Origin: a virus
DNA: 37,137 nucleotides
Strand: one strand, 5' to 3'
IMG/VR virus record: IMGVR_UViG_3300020185_000129
Coordinates: 1 to 37,137 of that record
Shown here piece after piece: positions 5,976 through 31,040 of this stretch (position 1 is its first letter; every line of letters begins with the position of its first letter). The translations under genes were made by a program, and so were the position numbers. Under the pieces are notes generated by a model that worked only from the letters and a program-made list of their open reading frames with translations, searched no databases and was not told the origin of the DNA.

Positions 5976-6205
5976 GCAACTATACCCCGACGACAGACTT
6001 TGCCGCTAAGGATTCTTTGCCTTCTGGAGACAGTGGCAAGATCATTCGTGGTACAGAGTTCAGCACAGAGTTTACTAACATAGCAACCGCAGTAGCGTCC
6101 AAGGCTAACACGGCAAGCCCTACGTTTACTGGAACTGTAACGATACCTGCCCTTACGTTTACGGGTACGTTAACGACAGGAACAATTGACGGAGGTAATT
6201 ACTAA
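5972..6205 (+). CDS. Small tail-tip/fibre-like protein
   Basis: 77 residues. The N-terminal part (TTDFAAKDSLPSGDSGKIIRGTEFSTEFTNIATAVASK) is a widespread phage structural motif, seen as a fibre-attachment segment in which a KIIKGxEF stretch precedes AI..K. The rest is Thr/Gly-rich beta repeats ending GTIDGGNY, as in fibre tips. The protein at 33949-35046 ends similarly (STVDGGTY). The Gly-Gly codons also form the GGAGGT ribosome-binding site of the next gene. Likely a minor tail protein. Confidence 0.6.
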   Translation: MSNYTPTTDFAAKDSLPSGDSGKIIRGTEFSTEFTNIATAVASKANTASPTFTGTVTIPALTFTGTLTTGTIDGGNY

Positions 6206-7272
6206 TGAGCTTACAAGCATTTCTAACAAGTCTAGGCAAAGGCCTCGGCACTGCTGCTGGTAGCATAGGCACTTCAATTGTTGACAACGCAGGTAGTGTT
6301 GGTTTAGGCGCTGGCGGTTTACTGCTTGCTAAAGAAGCCTACGACAGGCTAGGCGACATAGGCGATCAAGCTCTTGTGGGTTCTCAAATTGAAGGGCCAG
6401 ACGGTACGATGGTAAACGTGCCCGGAGCATTAGACATTGCACAGCTTGGTCTTGATCAGACACAGTTCCAGCCTTACGGTGTAACCTCATCTACTGGCAG
6501 TAAGTTTGGTTTCCAGCCTACCTATGATGCGCAAGGTACAATAACAGGATACGGTACTACGCAAACTCTGTCGCCTGAGGAGCAGGCGCTACAAGGTATG
6601 CTTATGGGGCAAGCAGGCACTACCTTAGGCGCTTCTCCGTATGGTCAAGCGGCTGGTAGAACAGCAGCAGAGCAAGCTTACGGTCTCGGTACTGGATTTA
6701 TGGCTTCTGCTGGCATGCCTACAGCGGGTCGAGAAGCTGAAGTGTACGATAGAATACGCGCAGTCCAGCAGCCAGAGGAAGAACGTCAGCGCATGGCGCT
6801 AGAGGAGAGACTGTTTAACCAAGGACGCTCAGGTGTCTCTACTAACATGTACGGCGGTACGCCTGAGCAGCTTGCGATGGCTAAAGCGCAGGGTGAAGCA
6901 CAGAACGCAGCGGCGTTATCTGCGATACAGCAGGGTCAAGCAGAGCAGATGCAGCAGGCCAAGCTTGGTCAAGCGTTTACAGGCATGGGTTCTCAGTTGT
7001 CTGCACAAGACTTGGCACTGTTAGGTGGACAGCAACAGCTAGGTTTGGGCGCGCTTGCAGGCTCTTACGTACCACAGGCTCAGTTGTTAGCAGCCATGCA
7101 AGGCAGTGAGCTTTACCCACAGCTACAGCAGAAGGGACAACTCTACGGTTCTGGCTTGTTTGGTGAAGCGGCTATGGGCGGGCTTGAAGCGCAGCTTGGC
7201 GCTGGTCTTGGGCAGGCTAACCTGATGGGACAGCTTGGTAGTGGTTTGTTAGGCGGCGCGTTTAAAATCTAA
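6205..7272 (+). CDS. Internal virion / ejection protein (small, Gly/Gln/Ala-rich)
   Basis: 355 residues. An N-terminal Gly-rich hydrophobic part (residues about 10-45, GKGLGTAAGSIGTSIVDNAG) is followed by a middle segment with Glu/Arg helices (EEERQRMALEERLFNQGRSG) and a long Gln/Ala/Gly-rich helical region. Such Gln-rich, Gly-punctuated proteins between the tail nozzle and the very large ejection protein correspond in position to T7 gp14-class proteins that enter the host envelope. Sequence identity with T7 is not visible; the role is from position and composition. Start ATG 6205 has GGAGGT upstream. Confidence 0.6.
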   Translation: MSLQAFLTSLGKGLGTAAGSIGTSIVDNAGSVGLGAGGLLLAKEAYDRLGDIGDQALVGSQIEGPDGTMVNVPGALDIAQLGLDQTQFQPYGVTSSTGSKFGFQPTYDAQGTITGYGTTQTLSPEEQALQGMLMGQAGTTLGASPYGQAAGRTAAEQAYGLGTGFMASAGMPTAGREAEVYDRIRAVQQPEEERQRMALEERLFNQGRSGVSTNMYGGTPEQLAMAKAQGEAQNAAALSAIQQGQAEQMQQAKLGQAFTGMGSQLSAQDLALLGGQQQLGLGALAGSYVPQAQLLAAMQGSELYPQLQQKGQLYGSGLFGEAAMGGLEAQLGAGLGQANLMGQLGSGLLGGAFKI

Positions 7273-8487: not shown

Positions 8488-11237
8488 CTGATAAAAAAAC
8501 TTCAAGAGTAGACTTAGGCGACGGCAGTGTTTTAACTTTTGCACACCCTGATGATTGGTCTGATGCGAAGATTAAAGCGTACGCTAGGCTAAACAGAAGC
8601 AAGGCTACGTCTACAAAGTCTACCGACACACCTACAGACAATAAAGCAGACGCTGACGAGATCACTACAGTCGATTTAGCCAAGCTTGGCCTGTCTAGGT
8701 TTGCTGTTCAGTTTGTCCCTGATGTTTTTCTATACAGCCGCGACGAAACCAACGCGGCTCTGGAAAGATCAGTAGGTAAATCAGAAGGCTTGTTTGACAC
8801 TGTTGGTTCAACGATGATGGAAGGCGAGGCAGAGAATCCCGGCGCTGTTAAGGAGAGAAAGGCTAGACAGATTGCTGGTGTGCCTGTAGACGCGGAGCTT
8901 GGTCTTGGGCAGGAAATCATAGCAGGCCTTTCTGATCCTCTTACGCTGGCGGGTACACCTATAAGAGCAGGCGTAACTAAGTTTTTGGCAGGCGCTGTCC
9001 CTGCTGTTACCTCTACAGTTGCAGGAACTACCGGAGGTGTTGTTGCTCCGCAGATAGTTAAAGAGTTAGGCGGCGGTGAGTTTGCTCAGGAAATGGCTGG
9101 CGCTGTTGCGGGCGGTGCTGCTGGCTTTGCTGCGGGTGCTGGCGTTACTCCGGTTGTCTCTACAGCAACTCGTGTAGGCGCTGAAGGATTTAAAAAGTTA
9201 ACGAACGCACCTGAAGCTTTAGCGAATAGTCAGGTTAGGTCTGAGTTGAATCAAATTAAAAACACTACAAAGCCTGAAGAGGTTGCTAATTCGGTCAACG
9301 AACTGGCTAGGCTTAAAGAAGAGATACCCGATCTAGAGCTTGGCGGTATCTTAGCGACAATGTTAGACAACGCTCCTGCGCGTAACTGGATAAAAAAGAC
9401 TTCAGCACAGAACAAGGCGTTTCAAAAGGAAGTCAACGATCTTGTTCAGCGCGAGACAGAAAAGCTAGCAGACAGGTTTGATGCTGTTGCTGGCATTGAC
9501 CCTGCTGCGCCTGTGACTAGACAGGAAATTGAAGTCGTGTTTCAGAAAGAGTTTGACAAGCAGGAAACTATATCAAGAGACAGGATTGACCGACAAAAAC
9601 AAAACATTGATAAGGTGTTAGCAGGTTTAACTACTAGGCTTACTGGAACAAAGGACGCTATTGACGTAGGCAGGACAGCTAACAAACTACTTGATAGAAA
9701 AGAATCAATGATCAGAAAGGAAGCTGACAAACTTTATGACGTTGTGAACAAGCGCGGTAAAAGTGTAAGGCTGACCGACAAGCAAGTGTTTGACGTTTGG
9801 AATAACTTTCGTAATGTACGCTTGCAAGATATGTTCGGCCCTCAGAGTAAGGTAGGGCAGCAGCTTGAGAAGCATTGGAAACCTACAGAGGTGGAAGACG
9901 CTGACGGAAACATGATGTTTGAGATGCCAAAAGTAACTGGCTCTGATCTTATCTCTTTAAAGAAGGCTGTCAACACTGAGATAACTAAACTGTCTAAGCG
10001 TAACCTGCGCGACGACATGCAAGCTAGCCAGACGCTTAACAAGCTCTATCAGACCAAAGAAATAATAAAGCAAACTATGGCAGACAAGGCGAAAACAGCG
10101 CCTACGTTTATTAAAGGCTTGCGTGACGCTGATGCGTTTTACTACAAAGAGCTTGGTCTTCCTATGCGCGCAGAAGGTATGCGGGATTTTACTGCAAAGC
10201 GTTTTGATAAAGGCGCTGCCGATGCTCTGATGAATTACCAGCAGGCTGAAGACTACGTTTCGTTTGTCGGTAAAGGCGGTGAGGCTGTGGTAAGACACGC
10301 TATAAGACTTAAAGCAGAGAAGGCTGGTGTAATCGGAGCAGATGGTAACATCAATCAGAGACAGCTTGACACGTTTGTTAGGCGCAATCAAAGATTGATA
10401 CAGCGTTTTGGAATGGCGCAGGAGTTTGCGGACACGGCAGGCAGACTAAGAACCATAAGGAATACAGAGGCGCGGCACAATCAGGCCTTTAAGGAGCAAA
10501 GCACCAAAAACGCAGAAGGTTTCTTTAAAACAATATCCAACATGAAGCTTTCTAAAGTGGTTGCAGAGATGCAGTCTAACCCAGCAAAGCGTAAAAGCTA
10601 CTTAGAAGAAATAAACAAGCTAAACGAAACTGAAAAAGCCTCTGTGTTGTCAGGGATACGTCAAGAGTTTTTGATGGGTTCTTACGGAAAGTCAGATTCA
10701 ATGGCAGACATTGTAAAAAGAAACTCTGAATTTGTTGATGATGTGTTTGGTGCTGGGTACGCCAAGAACATACAGAGACTCGCAGCAATCAGTGACAAGC
10801 TAAAGAAGATAGATTCTGTGTTGCTTGATAGCATGTCAGGTTCGCCTGTGATGGACACAGTGCAGGAGTCAATAGGCGTTAGCATACCTGAGCTTGCGGG
10901 TACGTTTAGAAACCAGATACTGTCACCGCAACGTAAAGTTATTAACACAGTGGCGCGGTCAGCAATCACAAAAGGAAAGGATAAGTTTTACAGTAAGTCA
11001 GCGGAGGTGTTGCTTGATCCTGACGTTGTTGCAGAGCTTGCCAACCCCCCTACAAGCGAATTTGCTAAGGCTTGGAAGGGATCTAAAGAGGCTGCTGTGA
11101 AGGTGGGACAGTACTACGTAGAGGCATTACAAGGATCGTTAAATCTTTCTACCATTAAAGCGTTCACGGCAGCGACTGACGTAACCACTCCAGCGGAACA
11201 GGAAGAACTAAAAAGGGGAGCCGAAGCTCCCAAGTAG
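8484..11237 (+). CDS. Large internal virion / ejection protein (gp16 position)
   Basis: 917 residues. Residues about 1-60 are polar. Residues about 150-235 are a long Gly/Ala hydrophobic region (AGAVPAVTSTVAGTTGGVV, AGAVAGGAAGFAAGAGV) suited to membrane insertion. The remainder is a long, charged helical body. It takes the last place of the T7-like order (adaptor, nozzle, three internal proteins). I see no transglycosylase motif in it, unlike T7 gp16. It ends six bases before the stop of the convergent minus-strand reductase gene, and its last codons double as that operon's terminator hairpin. Confidence 0.65.
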   Translation: MTDKKTSRVDLGDGSVLTFAHPDDWSDAKIKAYARLNRSKATSTKSTDTPTDNKADADEITTVDLAKLGLSRFAVQFVPDVFLYSRDETNAALERSVGKSEGLFDTVGSTMMEGEAENPGAVKERKARQIAGVPVDAELGLGQEIIAGLSDPLTLAGTPIRAGVTKFLAGAVPAVTSTVAGTTGGVVAPQIVKELGGGEFAQEMAGAVAGGAAGFAAGAGVTPVVSTATRVGAEGFKKLTNAPEALANSQVRSELNQIKNTTKPEEVANSVNELARLKEEIPDLELGGILATMLDNAPARNWIKKTSAQNKAFQKEVNDLVQRETEKLADRFDAVAGIDPAAPVTRQEIEVVFQKEFDKQETISRDRIDRQKQNIDKVLAGLTTRLTGTKDAIDVGRTANKLLDRKESMIRKEADKLYDVVNKRGKSVRLTDKQVFDVWNNFRNVRLQDMFGPQSKVGQQLEKHWKPTEVEDADGNMMFEMPKVTGSDLISLKKAVNTEITKLSKRNLRDDMQASQTLNKLYQTKEIIKQTMADKAKTAPTFIKGLRDADAFYYKELGLPMRAEGMRDFTAKRFDKGAADALMNYQQAEDYVSFVGKGGEAVVRHAIRLKAEKAGVIGADGNINQRQLDTFVRRNQRLIQRFGMAQEFADTAGRLRTIRNTEARHNQAFKEQSTKNAEGFFKTISNMKLSKVVAEMQSNPAKRKSYLEEINKLNETEKASVLSGIRQEFLMGSYGKSDSMADIVKRNSEFVDDVFGAGYAKNIQRLAAISDKLKKIDSVLLDSMSGSPVMDTVQESIGVSIPELAGTFRNQILSPQRKVINTVARSAITKGKDKFYSKSAEVLLDPDVVAELANPPTSEFAKAWKGSKEAAVKVGQYYVEALQGSLNLSTIKAFTAATDVTTPAEQEELKRGAEAPK
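11210..11231 (-). terminator. Rho-independent terminator of the minus-strand early operon, inside the plus-strand CDS
   Basis: Read on the minus strand: GGGAGC, loop TTCG, GCTCCC, then CTTTTTAG. This is a perfect 6-bp GC-rich stem with a UUCG tetraloop and a U-run, placed just after the reductase stop. On the plus strand the same hairpin is followed by AAGTAG rather than Us, so it should act only on minus-strand transcripts. Confidence 0.85.
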
Positions 11238-18629: not shown

Positions 18630-19388
18630 TTAACCTCCGCAGTATCCAGAATCGCAATCAACATCTATCAATTCTATCTGATTGCTGCTGCTTTTTCTAT
18701 AGTTATTTGTACGTGCCCACTTAACAACATCTCTTATGTTGTCGTTGCCTAGCTTTGAGTTGGGGTTAAACCAAGCAGATCCCGTAGCCTTCTCAACTTT
18801 CTCTACCTTTAGTATGTCTTCTTCTGTCATCTCAGCTATGCCTGCTTTGCGTTGGTAGATACACGGGAAGCACTCTCTGCTACGGTGCGGAAGAAGCTCA
18901 AGCTCAGTGGCTTTGATCAGTGAGTCTCTGCGTTCTTCGTCGTACCGTACAAGCGGTGCCCATAGTGATCGGCCTCCGTGACCTTCGCTTTCTTCTGTAT
19001 GTTCGGGAAACGTAGCGCGTCTTGCTGACTCCTCACGCCGCACCCCTATCAGAACCGTTGCCTCTTTGTCAGGATCGTGCTCGTCCATAAGCTCAAGGCT
19101 AGGCGCTATCTTTAGTTGTTGAGTACAGAACTGGCGTCGGAATGCTGGGGTTATCTGACGTTCTTCACACAGCTTATCCATTCCCATTGTCTTTGTTCGT
19201 ACAAAACAAAATCCCATGTCGCCTGCTAGTTGATCTACTTCATCTATTCTTTTCTCCCAGTCTGAATGATGCCAGCCTGTGTCATTGTATACAACAAGCA
19301 CATTCTTTAAGTGTCTGTCGTAGGCCCACTGCATTAAGGCAACGCTGTCGTTACCACATGATGTAAATAAAAAGTAATCGAATCTCAC
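18630..19388 (-). CDS. PAPS reductase / DndC-like PP-loop protein
   Basis: 252 residues from GTG 19388, overlapping the helicase stop (GTGA) behind AGGAGAA. The nucleotide-binding PP-loop is TSCGNDSVAL (residues 9-18) in place of SGGxDS. Other signatures: VVYNDTGWHH, RRQFCTQQLKIAP around C88, and two cysteine pairs, C173-x2-C176 (RECFPCIY) and C245-x4-C250 (DCDSGYCGG), which could hold an iron-sulfur cluster or metal. The family activates substrates with ATP in sulfur transfer or sulfate reduction. No other dnd genes are present, so phosphorothioation is not implied. It is placed between helicase and nuclease-like genes. Confidence 0.8.
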   Translation of the reverse strand: MRFDYFLFTSCGNDSVALMQWAYDRHLKNVLVVYNDTGWHHSDWEKRIDEVDQLAGDMGFCFVRTKTMGMDKLCEERQITPAFRRQFCTQQLKIAPSLELMDEHDPDKEATVLIGVRREESARRATFPEHTEESEGHGGRSLWAPLVRYDEERRDSLIKATELELLPHRSRECFPCIYQRKAGIAEMTEEDILKVEKVEKATGSAWFNPNSKLGNDNIRDVVKWARTNNYRKSSSNQIELIDVDCDSGYCGG

Positions 19389-24449: not shown

Positions 24450-24944
24450 TTATAGGGTAGCCGCTGCATCGGCTAACAGTACAGCTAATTGATGCAATTG
24501 TGAATCCGTCAATTCTGCGTTTGCAATATTCTTCGCAGTCTCTACCAGTATGTTATCGCCTTCGGATTCCGTCTCGGTCTTTGGCGCTTTTACCGTCCAT
24601 TCAAAACCTTTTGTAGCCTTGAATGATAGCGCATAACCTTTCTGCGTCACCTTGTCGCGTGTCTTACCGTTTTTCATCGTCACTGTTTCAATGACAGCGC
24701 CGAAGCATTCTAGCATTCTAGACTCGCGGTTTATCGTAGATTTGAGAGTCTTTAGCGCGTTTACATTATCATCGGCGCTTAGTTCGATTACCGCTTCAAC
24801 TAACAAGCTGTCTGTTTCATTGTGAAACGCTATCGTTTCTGCGTCTCGGTCGATTGTGAATTGCGCTGTCTCTAATACGTCTCGAACACAAGCGGCTAAA
24901 GTACCTGCAACGTTTGCAGCGTTTGCAATATCTGATTCGTACAT
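24450..24944 (-). CDS. First gene of the minus-strand arm, function unknown (164 aa)
   Basis: 164 residues, acidic. N-terminal helices (ANAANVAGTLAACVRDVLET), a middle strand region (SLLVEAVIELSADDN), a Lys-rich strand pair (KGYALSFKATKGFEWTVKAP), then a Thr/Glu linker and a C-terminal helix (SQLHQLAVLLADAAATL). No family recognised. It is the leading gene of the leftward arm next to the control region, so it is expected to be expressed first. Its ATG overlaps a degenerate TAACTTGTTA junction element; the AAGG site lies inside that element's flank. Confidence 0.65.
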   Translation of the reverse strand: MYESDIANAANVAGTLAACVRDVLETAQFTIDRDAETIAFHNETDSLLVEAVIELSADDNVNALKTLKSTINRESRMLECFGAVIETVTMKNGKTRDKVTQKGYALSFKATKGFEWTVKAPKTETESEGDNILVETAKNIANAELTDSQLHQLAVLLADAAATL

Positions 24945-25028
24945 AACAAGTTACCTTTTAGTGATTAAGTCGTTATTGACCATGTGTCTATATTGAACGA
25001 ATCAATTCAGATTGTCTAATACTGTTTT

Positions 25029-25044
25029 GTTATAAGCTTATAAC
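25029..25044. repeat. Perfect 16-bp palindrome
   Basis: GTTATAAGCTTATAAC reads identically on both strands. It lies 85 bases upstream of the first minus-strand gene. It could bind a dimeric protein or mark an origin; no name can be given. Confidence 0.7.
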
Positions 25045-25104
25045 CGTTTAGTATATCAGGACAGAATCTGTTTAGCGCCTAACATATATTCAATGCAGTG
25101 TCTA

Positions 25105-25124
25105 TACTGTATGGATATACAGTG
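25105..25124. promoter_or_regulatory. LexA (SOS) box-like operator
   Basis: TACTGTATGGATATACAGTG has CTGT-N8-ACAG and matches 17 of 20 positions of the E. coli LexA consensus, with 7-bp perfect arms. It lies in the spacer between weak CAGACA and TATAGA hexamers on the minus strand, where a bound repressor could block leftward transcription. Confidence 0.65.
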
Positions 25125-25169
25125 TCTGTGTTGGGTCTATAGGGTACTACATAGACTCTCACACTCAAC

Positions 25170-25316
25170 TGCATTGATTCTCATTAGCATCTGATAATGA
25201 TTCTCATTAGTACTTGATAGTAGTGGCGTTAATGATTCTCATTAGTACTTGATAAGCGTAGTGATAATGATTCTGATTTGTATTCTCGTTCGCATTTGAT
25301 AATGATTCTCATTAGC
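25170..25316. promoter_or_regulatory. Tandem Fur-box-like dyads (or iterons)
   Basis: Copies of the dyad TAATGA-TTC-TCATTA or variants share a core starting at 25177, 25200, 25235, 25270, 25282 (degenerate) and 25305, i.e. spacings of 23, 35, 35, 12 and 23 (12+23=35). The best copy (25298-25316, GATAATGATTCTCATTAGC) matches 16 of 19 positions of the classical Fur box. Confidence 0.7.
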
Positions 25317-25508
25317 ATTTAGACACCGGGGCAGGGGTATTGTAGTTGTGTTGGTTTATAGTACCTGCACAGACACAAAAAAGAGCTAAATTGAAACTCA
25401 ACATGCAACGCAGAAAGCTAGATAACGTAAGGGTCTAAACAGAATCTGGAGTGCGCCTGTAAGGGACAGTACAGATCTGTGTAGTATTTACATTATAAAA
25501 GAAAAGAC

Positions 25509-25537
25509 TTGACAAACACTGAAAAGTATGCTATAAT
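25509..25537 (+). promoter_or_regulatory. Sigma70 promoter for the packaging/late arm
   Basis: TTGACA (25509-25514), 17-bp spacer ending GAAAAGTATGC, TATAAT (25532-25537): both hexamers consensus, extended -10 TG. It continues ATATACTGTATAG, containing a half LexA-like TACTGTAT. It drives the genes from 25738 rightward. Confidence 0.92.
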
Positions 25538-25586
25538 ATACTGTATAGATAAGTGATTAACTAAAGAGAAACTTGATCGCGCCGCT

Positions 25587-25696
25587 AATGCTTGACAACA
25601 TATAGGAACTTGACCACATAAAAGCATTAAGGATAAACATATATAAATATAACTTTAATGCCTATATGCAGTCATGGGCTAATATGCAGTCATGGG
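25587..25696 (+). repeat. Leader repeats with 18-bp period and a 7-bp stem
   Basis: CTTGACAACATA (25591-25602) and CTTGACCACATA (25609-25620) are 18 bp apart and enclosed by a stem AATGCTT (25587-25593) / AAGCATT (25622-25628). Further down, ATATGCAGTCATGGG occurs at 25664-25678 and 25682-25696, again 18 bp apart. All are in the untranslated leader of the first plus-strand gene. Confidence 0.7.
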
Positions 25697-25737
25697 ACGG
25701 CGAAGTTTCTATATAGTTCTTATACGAGGATGTTGTA

Positions 25738-26118
25738 GTGTCAGAAAAACCCGGTAGTAGTCGTGGTCGTCCCAAAAAGTCAGAAGTAGAGGCTGTTAAG
25801 AAAGGAAACAGGCGGGCTGTTGGGCGTCCGAAGGGCGACGCTGGCATTATGAACGAGTATAAGGCCCGAATGTTAGCCTCACCGAAGTCCAGAAAGGTCT
25901 TAGATGCTATTTTTTCTGCGGCTTTGGACGATGATCACAAGAATCAAGCAGCGGCGTGGAAGCTGGTGATGGACAGAGTTGCACCAACCGCGCTATTTGA
26001 AAAAGAAGTCATTAAAGAAGGTGGAAGAAGCGCCATTCAGATTAACATTACAGGCGTGGGTTCTACCGAAGTGTCATCAGGTGACGTTATTGACGGAGAT
26101 TCCGGTGAAGTACTTTAA
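25738..26118 (+). CDS. terS: Putative terminase small subunit with AT-hook motifs
   Basis: 126 residues from GTG 25738 (ACGAGGA upstream). Two AT-hook-like motifs, SRGRPKKS and AVGRPKGD, lie in the first 40 residues, followed by a helical core (SRKVLDAIFSAALDDDHKNQAAAWKLVMDRV) and an acidic C-terminal tail. AT-hook small proteins immediately before TerL are typical DNA-recognition subunits that choose the packaging site. Only the endolysin and one small protein separate it from TerL. It is the first gene after the late promoter. Confidence 0.65.
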   Translation: MSEKPGSSRGRPKKSEVEAVKKGNRRAVGRPKGDAGIMNEYKARMLASPKSRKVLDAIFSAALDDDHKNQAAAWKLVMDRVAPTALFEKEVIKEGGRSAIQINITGVGSTEVSSGDVIDGDSGEVL

Positions 26119-30365: not shown

Positions 30366-31040
30366 ATGAGCTACGAAACCAAAGTTAAGGAAGCCATAGG
30401 GTACTGTCTAAAGCAAAACGGACTCAAGGGTAACGCAAGTGAGAAAGTTATTGTTATGTACTCAGGTGGTATGGACAGCGTAAGTTTACTTTGGAACCTT
30501 TTAGAACACACGGAGCACGATGTACACGTACACTCAATACACTTGCACAACAAAGAGGGACGTTACAAAGCGGAAGCACACGCAATCCTAAACAGTATAC
30601 AGTACATGAAGGACAACCAAAGACCCTTTGAGTTTTCTTCGTCAGTGTATTCGTATATGGCTAAGGGTTGCGGCGGTCGCGACATGGCTTTGTATCTTTT
30701 TCAAGCGTCGCGTGTAGCAGCAGGAGAGGGACGCACATCAGCGGCTGTCTATACTGGTGACTACAACATGAGTAAGGTAGAGTCAGCAGAAGCTTACGGC
30801 ATTCTGTCAGCGATGTCTACCGGAAAACGTTTTAGACCCGTGTGGGCTACGCCGTTTGATAACATGACTAAGACGCCCGTTGAGCGCAGTAAAGGCATTT
30901 ACATGAGTATGCCTGAGCCTCTTAGGGAAATGTACTGGTCGTGCCGTAAACCCACTGAGGTTGGTGAAGGTTTTCTAACCTGCGGTGAGTGCCACGCTTG
31001 CAAAAGGCAAGCACACATGAAAGAAAGCTTAAAAACTTAG
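30366..31040 (+). CDS. queC: QueC-like ATP-dependent 7-cyano-7-deazaguanine synthase family protein
   Basis: 224 residues, the normal QueC size. PP-loop MYSGGMDSVSLLW (S33-G-G-M-D-S38) near the N-terminus, and C193, C206, C209, C212 near the C-terminus; the last three are spaced three apart (CGECHAC), as in the QueC zinc site, with the first cysteine upstream. The family converts 7-carboxy-7-deazaguanine to preQ0 with ATP and ammonia, a step in queuosine or archaeosine-type tRNA modification and in 7-deazaguanine DNA modification of phages. No folE, queD, queE or dpdA partner was found here, so the substrate would have to come from the host or the enzyme has diverged. Confidence 0.72.
   Translation: MSYETKVKEAIGYCLKQNGLKGNASEKVIVMYSGGMDSVSLLWNLLEHTEHDVHVHSIHLHNKEGRYKAEAHAILNSIQYMKDNQRPFEFSSSVYSYMAKGCGGRDMALYLFQASRVAAGEGRTSAAVYTGDYNMSKVESAEAYGILSAMSTGKRFRPVWATPFDNMTKTPVERSKGIYMSMPEPLREMYWSCRKPTEVGEGFLTCGECHACKRQAHMKESLKT

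Follow-up and report, generated by a model that had tools for sequence, protein, structure and literature searches.

The DNA analysed here, hereafter the window, is one virus record of 37137 bases. Its sole divergent control region is a non-coding stretch of 793 bp (24945-25737). From it, the replication genes extend leftward as far as 11.24 kb; those for terminase, portal, capsid and tail read rightward. A LexA-type box and an array of Fur-type boxes are both located inside this stretch. The features are listed below; those given with no sign carry no strand.

24450..24944, minus strand: first early gene, left border of the control region, no family found
24990..25018, minus strand: candidate early promoter TAGACA-17-CAATAT, weak, read from the sequence, with a similar arrangement in relatives
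25105..25124: LexA-type box TACTGTATGGATATACAGTG, 17/20 match to TACTGTATATATATACAGTA
25138..25166: left anchor TATAGGGTACTACATAGACTCTCACACTC, read from the sequence, kept in relatives to the left of the slot for Fur or DnaA sites
25170..25188: degenerate Fur-type unit, 13/19, with TGATTCTCATTAGCAT in common with the Fur array
25193..25211: first of four Fur-type boxes, 16/19
25228..25246: second Fur-type box, 15/19
25263..25281: third Fur-type box, 14/19
25298..25316: fourth Fur-type box, 17/19
25326..25337: G-rich run CCGGGGCAGGGG, conserved, marking where the array is bordered on the right
25370..25392: right anchor CAGACACAAAAAAGAGCTAAATT, likewise conserved, the query for fetching relatives
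25509..25537, plus strand: late promoter TTGACA-17-TATAAT with TG extension and perfect hexamers, from a motif scan
25539-25546: half-site TACTGTAT downstream of the late promoter, 13/20 as a full LexA box
25738..26118, plus strand: first late gene, small terminase-like by position, right border, no family match

The product of the first late gene (126 aa) has an N-terminal AT-hook-like RGRPKK/VGRPKG, with Pfam AT_hook below cut-off. Auxiliary genes at 18630-19388 and 30366-31040 encode a PAPS-reductase-like and a QueC-like protein, respectively. Neither an integrase nor a phage repressor was recognised among the family matches of the window ORFs, several of which have no family, in agreement with the first-pass annotation.

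Within the window, TACTGTATGGATATACAGTG is the only place with three or fewer mismatches to the LexA consensus, and 100 dinucleotide shuffles of the window yielded no place reaching its match. By itself, the CTGTN8ACAG core falls short of significance (2 in the window versus 1.1 expected), so the strength of the box rests on the full 20-mer, in which core, consensus flanks and interior are all present; the corresponding logo is clade-wide. The near-consensus LexA box reported earlier for the main control region is confirmed. It had further been placed between -35/-10-like hexamers on the minus strand and read as an operator tying early genes to the SOS response. No minus-strand sigma-70 site of at least 10/12 was found in 24900-25740, and the early promoter candidate, which scores below that threshold, is nonetheless the best placed. 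LexA operators overlap or adjoin the promoter of the regulated gene. TACTGTATGGATATACAGTG is situated 86 bp upstream of the early candidate and about 385 bp from the late promoter, the Fur boxes are farther from the early candidate, and neither kind of box overlaps either promoter; hence neither is in classical operator position. A simple LexA operator on the early promoter was rejected in view of this position and of the turnover of the box in relatives. The half-site described earlier as following the late promoter is present, and it trails the late -10 in relatives both with and without LexA arrays. It is therefore probably no LexA site, was dropped as such, and belongs to the conserved promoter region.

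The larger feature was passed over in the first-pass annotation. Four Fur-type boxes follow to the right of the LexA box with an exact 35-bp period (25193-25316). The anchors bracketing this array (25138-25166 and 25360-25392) look like diverged direct repeats (GTACTACATAGACTCTCACAC / GTACCTGCACAGACACAAAAAAG). Possible roles of such repeats are a recombination handle for array swapping or a packaging signal beside terS.

Relatives were collected with three queries (the primase-helicase, TerL and the first of the rightward genes) and by an exact search with the right anchor. The 172 loci, each containing the right anchor once, gave 105 non-redundant control regions. In 87 of them, an equivalent of the late promoter follows the conserved G-run at a distance of 150-314 bp on its right side. 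In a count of recurrent 9-mers within the control regions, for which no motif was supplied, TTATCCACA (DnaA box), AATGAGAATCATTA (Fur), TACTGTATA (LexA) and GTTGGCACG/TTGCATGGG (sigma-54) ranked near the top; these motifs had been spotted by eye ahead of the count. Enrichment was calculated for 46.7 kb of control region against the 737 kb remainder of the same contigs. For the motifs of a panel partly picked after viewing the sequences, whose folds are not blind and whose site counts, in relatives of common ancestry, are not independent events, the enrichment was 429-fold for DnaA TTATCCACA (95 sites in 25 control regions), 326-fold for LexA (31 in 22) and 70-fold for Fur (33 in 22); parS (ParB; 8 sites in 8 control regions) and sigma-54 TTGGCACGNNNNTTGCA (33 sites in 16) occurred nowhere else in the contigs. 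The blind part of the test comprised NtrC, enriched 74-fold (7 sites in 5 control regions), and roughly twenty other regulator motifs, none of which showed comparable enrichment in the control regions. No control region contained a site for CRP, FNR, ArgR, PurR, MetJ, TrpR, Zur, PhoB or FadR, or a reversed version of seven of the motif patterns.

Using the strict panel, at least one site was detected in 64 of the 105 control regions, at least two in 59 and at least two classes in 29. The respective numbers for 1500 random 450-bp pieces from elsewhere in the contigs were 12, 0 and 0. The 41 control regions free of strict-panel sites include some that hold other repeats. Sites chosen by CTGTN8ACAG alone showed TA flanks and a ATATATAT-like interior at unselected positions, and those chosen by GGCAN7TGC alone showed AGTTGGCACG...TTGCA, which are the established consensus patterns of LexA and sigma-54. 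Neither pattern accompanied these cores where they occur in other parts of the genomes. By their identity, the sites are very probably those of host proteins. Arrays contain up to 10 DnaA boxes, and 5-7 LexA boxes in L511 and L514. Nine sigma-54-like sites alternate in strand in L181 and L187, and alternation was also seen in L436; the sigma-54 arrays of L127, L069 and L089 have one orientation throughout.

Other repeats were observed as well. The control regions L231, L235, L050, L125 and L279 carry GGTAACAC / GTTACCGGTAAC, and other regions carry TTGCATTNTGC, TTAAATGCATTTAA or GTGACC...GTCAC. The GGTAACAC repeats matched no regulator and were found in none of 229 genomes of the class. A further motif, GTCTTATAYAAGAC, is present in five copies per phage array (L234, L240, L250). 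In a Pseudoduganella genome (L527, L529) it occupies the interval from mdh to a GntR-family gene and also precedes a gene that reads as isocitrate lyase, gene names being taken from reading the translations. This placement suggests that GTCTTATAYAAGAC is probably a host (metabolic) regulator site too.

The site types give a hint of the host. A gammaproteobacterial host, in the GTDB sense, is consistent with CTGTN8ACAG as LexA core and with the types of the Fur, parS and NtrC sites. The alphaproteobacterial LexA motif GAACN7GAAC has 2 sites in the control regions, a 2.3-fold enrichment versus the 326-fold of the gamma type, and the box type and host suggested in the first-pass annotation are consistent with this result. 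TerL matches of 62-80% identity in MAG contigs were dropped as host evidence; the contigs come from unrelated phyla and so look like binning errors, not hosts. No close cultured isolate was found by DNA. Isolate proteins matched TerL at below 43% over half its length and the primase-helicase at 47% at most.

Arrays turn over faster than their surroundings. Pairs with right flanks 85-99% identical may have arrays just 35-55% identical, with differing contents. The control region of the window (L037) contains LexA and Fur sites, L046 contains GGTAACAC repeats, LexA and parS, and L044, whose right flank is 93% identical, has no LexA box and only Fur among the strict classes. LexA boxes occur in most, not all, members of the window's own clade, at varying places and in one to three copies. 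In other relatives, the box is duplicated, moved, or replaced by Fur, DnaA, ParB, sigma-54 or NtrC sites. Conservation across relatives had been named as a test of the operator. The box is not kept in all relatives with conserved surroundings, which in part speaks against an operator, while the wider site array persists. Read from these sequences, the array is a fast-changing, recombining non-coding module between divergent promoters, in which the identity of the sites is interchangeable, and the LexA box at 25105-25124 is one element of this multi-regulator array and no lone SOS operator. Gammaproteobacterial SOS operators have the 20-bp consensus, including flanks and interior, in common with the phage boxes. 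Unlike these operators, the phage boxes are located off damage-response promoters, stand among sites of the Fur, DnaA, parS and sigma-54 kinds, and are swapped fast.

Among the right-anchor loci, several relatives with long contigs (L228, L244, L220, L218 and others) have a contig end no more than a few hundred bases from the array; the contigs of other relatives do not end there. Such ends may mark genuine termini, or the assembly may have broken at the hypervariable module.

A collection of 2.9 million viral contigs was scanned for tandem arrays. It yielded 90 stretches with LexA boxes in tandem. Of the 84 that were analysed, 51 encode relatives of the TerL, TerS, portal, primase-helicase, polymerase or RNR of the phage, and in 37 the identity of TerL is at least 50%. 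For sigma-54, tandem sites turned up in at least 120 stretches; 68 of the 119 analysed contain homologs of the phage's proteins (TerL at 50% or more in 50). Reversed or complemented patterns gave no tandem array in the same collection. Mixed arrays include LexA-LexA-parS-parS-LexA-LexA in L464 and L473, LexA with Fur in L514, and sigma-54 with NtrC and DnaA in L391. A few sigma-54 matches (e.g. L434, L353) fall within repeats, or within what may be coding sequence, on unrelated contigs and could be of another kind.

BLAST searches with the arrays led to the T5-like phages AKFV33, KEY and AAS21 and to Aeromonas phage Aer_P220. In T5 (AY543070), a LexA box (9409-9428, 19/20), a DnaA box (9510) and a Fur-like array (around 9560-9718) are situated, together with TGTGCAAATCCGAC repeats, in and just past the annotated injection stop signal (9140-10149). 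About nine TGTGCAAATCCGAC repeats stand beside the array (9752-10490), and 10 exact or near copies lie between 9.7 and 12.2 kb. A second cluster outside the signal (6121-6230), in another non-coding stretch of the first-step-transfer (FST) DNA, comprises two DnaA boxes and one LexA box (16/20). Across the 111 kb of T5 scanned, these two clusters (L535, L536) hold the sole LexA and DnaA matches at those thresholds. The control, T7, has one DnaA box and nothing else. The T5 region is thus also a non-coding array with LexA, DnaA and Fur-like sites. Unlike the window phage, T5 is larger and of another family, its region has a function defined by two-step DNA entry, and it contains the TGTGCAAATCCGAC repeats too. 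Repeats, and possibly DnaA boxes, of the T5 injection stop signal have been described earlier. Our search covered open-access papers other than the classic ones on this signal, so what was observed in T5 may in part have been recorded before; in that case the T5 novelty would fall and the multi-regulator arrays of the uncultured clade would be unaffected.

The AKFV33 region is matched by 641 phage records, 412 of them over at least 80% of the region, and the matches listed are, by name and size, mostly T5-like. Repeats similar to TGTGCAAATCCGAC were observed in AKFV33 and KEY (L532, L534). Escherichia phage nepoznato (Phapecoctavirus), an unrelated 150-kb coliphage, has a non-coding Fur-like array at about 73.7 kb (L540). 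The cultured Autographiviridae phage Aer_P220 carries three to four LexA-like boxes near its genome start (L530, 279-470), two of which overlap in tandem.

The enriched, tandem and mixed sites, their turnover and their lack of overlap with promoters are the observations on which the following proposal is built. The non-coding array between the divergent promoters would be a capture module, to which master DNA-binding proteins of the host could attach at several sites of high affinity. The window would capture LexA and Fur, and its relatives DnaA, ParB, sigma-54 or NtrC. As phage genomes multiply, the arrays would bind host proteins and titrate them off their chromosomal targets. SOS and iron-uptake repression would be lifted, oriC would run short of DnaA, segregation would be disturbed, or sigma-54 genes would be blocked, depending on which effect suits the given phage and host. 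Interchangeable multi-site arrays, indifference to strand and distance from promoters argue for protein capture over control of an adjacent gene. The one property that LexA, Fur, DnaA, ParB, sigma-54 and NtrC share is tight specific DNA binding atop a host regulon or chromosome process. From the sites, we infer that host proteins bind, are titrated, and that the phage benefits. Titration would be the simplest consequence of capture; as the purpose of the arrays, it is put at somewhat under an even chance.

A single incoming genome cannot titrate, and the arithmetic is weak early in infection and for single-site classes. The window's own array has one LexA and four Fur-type sites, and if a cell contains perhaps 100 genome copies, a single LexA box per genome may draw off little of the LexA, except in a host where this protein is scarce. 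The 41 control regions devoid of strict sites also count against titration, and the locations between divergent promoters and in the T5 signal fit other roles too. In E. coli, tens to hundreds of decoy site copies are enough for titration (PMC7826281), and multicopy plasmids bearing Fur boxes relieve the repression of fhuF (PMC3145626). In the synthetic decoys and the Fur titration assay, multicopy sites pull a regulator off its targets, as proposed here; these are engineered plasmids or a laboratory assay, whereas the phage arrays are natural DNA with sites for several regulators at once (PMC7826281; PMC3145626). The layout of a decoy array, several strong promoter-free sites on a multicopy replicon, is found in the phage, with the copy number deduced from phage replication.

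Sensing of the host state is a rather unlikely alternative. Host LexA, Fur, DnaA or NtrC would set early or late phage transcription through true regulatory sites, so that a phage might, for example, be held back in healthy cells and fire upon DNA damage or iron loss. The arrays sit between divergent early and late promoters, some sigma-54 arrays have a single orientation (L127, L069, L089), and in GIL01 the host LexA is the lysogeny repressor (PMC4551915). GIL01-type LexA use was the only phage precedent found in the open-access literature, the classic T5 papers lying outside that coverage. GIL01 and the window phage share LexA-type boxes to which the host repressor could bind; in GIL01 they repress the lysogenic promoter P1 with the phage gp7 and control lysogeny (PMC4551915). 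The window phage differs: neither promoter is overlapped by LexA or Fur boxes, no lysogeny genes were recognised among the ORFs with family matches (several being unassigned), and sites of many other regulators are present. Replacement of LexA and Fur in the same slot by DnaA, ParB or sigma-54 arrays and the strand-alternating sigma-54 sites of several phages (L181, L187, L436) also speak against sensing.

Bound host proteins might instead form a physical barrier at a fixed point of the phage DNA, where entry of the DNA, transcription or replication would pause; any strong host binder would suffice for this. Interchangeable binders suit such a purely mechanical role, and in T5 the LexA, DnaA and Fur-like sites are located in the injection stop signal of the first-entering DNA. 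However, host proteins bind only DNA already in the cell, so that it is hard to see how entry would stop, the second LexA/DnaA cluster of T5 lies outside the signal, and contigs end near the array in several relatives but not in others. Such staging is considered distinctly improbable. Composition artefacts, or sites of phage-encoded proteins resembling host motifs, are very improbable: the repeats with no assigned regulator (GGTAACAC, TTGCATTNTGC, TTAAATGCATTTAA, GTGACC...GTCAC) and the several ORFs of no family would fit, but at least six independent host consensus motifs would need to coincide, and a chance origin was rejected in view of the shuffles, reversed and complemented motifs, null pieces, control scans and the remainder of the genomes, which yield essentially none.

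Returning to protein capture, the arrays may represent an unrecognised class of swappable non-coding modules that capture several host master regulators and rewire the host without encoding a protein. The class as a whole is put forward tentatively, with slightly less than even confidence; its users would be a large clade of uncultured phages and, independently of it, lytic phages of the T5-like and other groups. Host takeover is usually ascribed to phage proteins, rarely to RNAs. If the proposal is true, the phage DNA itself would be an effector acting on the master proteins that govern SOS, iron, the start of replication, segregation and nitrogen. The old puzzle of how the T5 injection stop signal works would become directly testable, because the signal holds sites for named E. 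coli proteins, amenable to deletion or depletion in laboratory strains. Non-coding hypervariable regions of phages would gain a function, and hosts could be predicted from regulator motifs.
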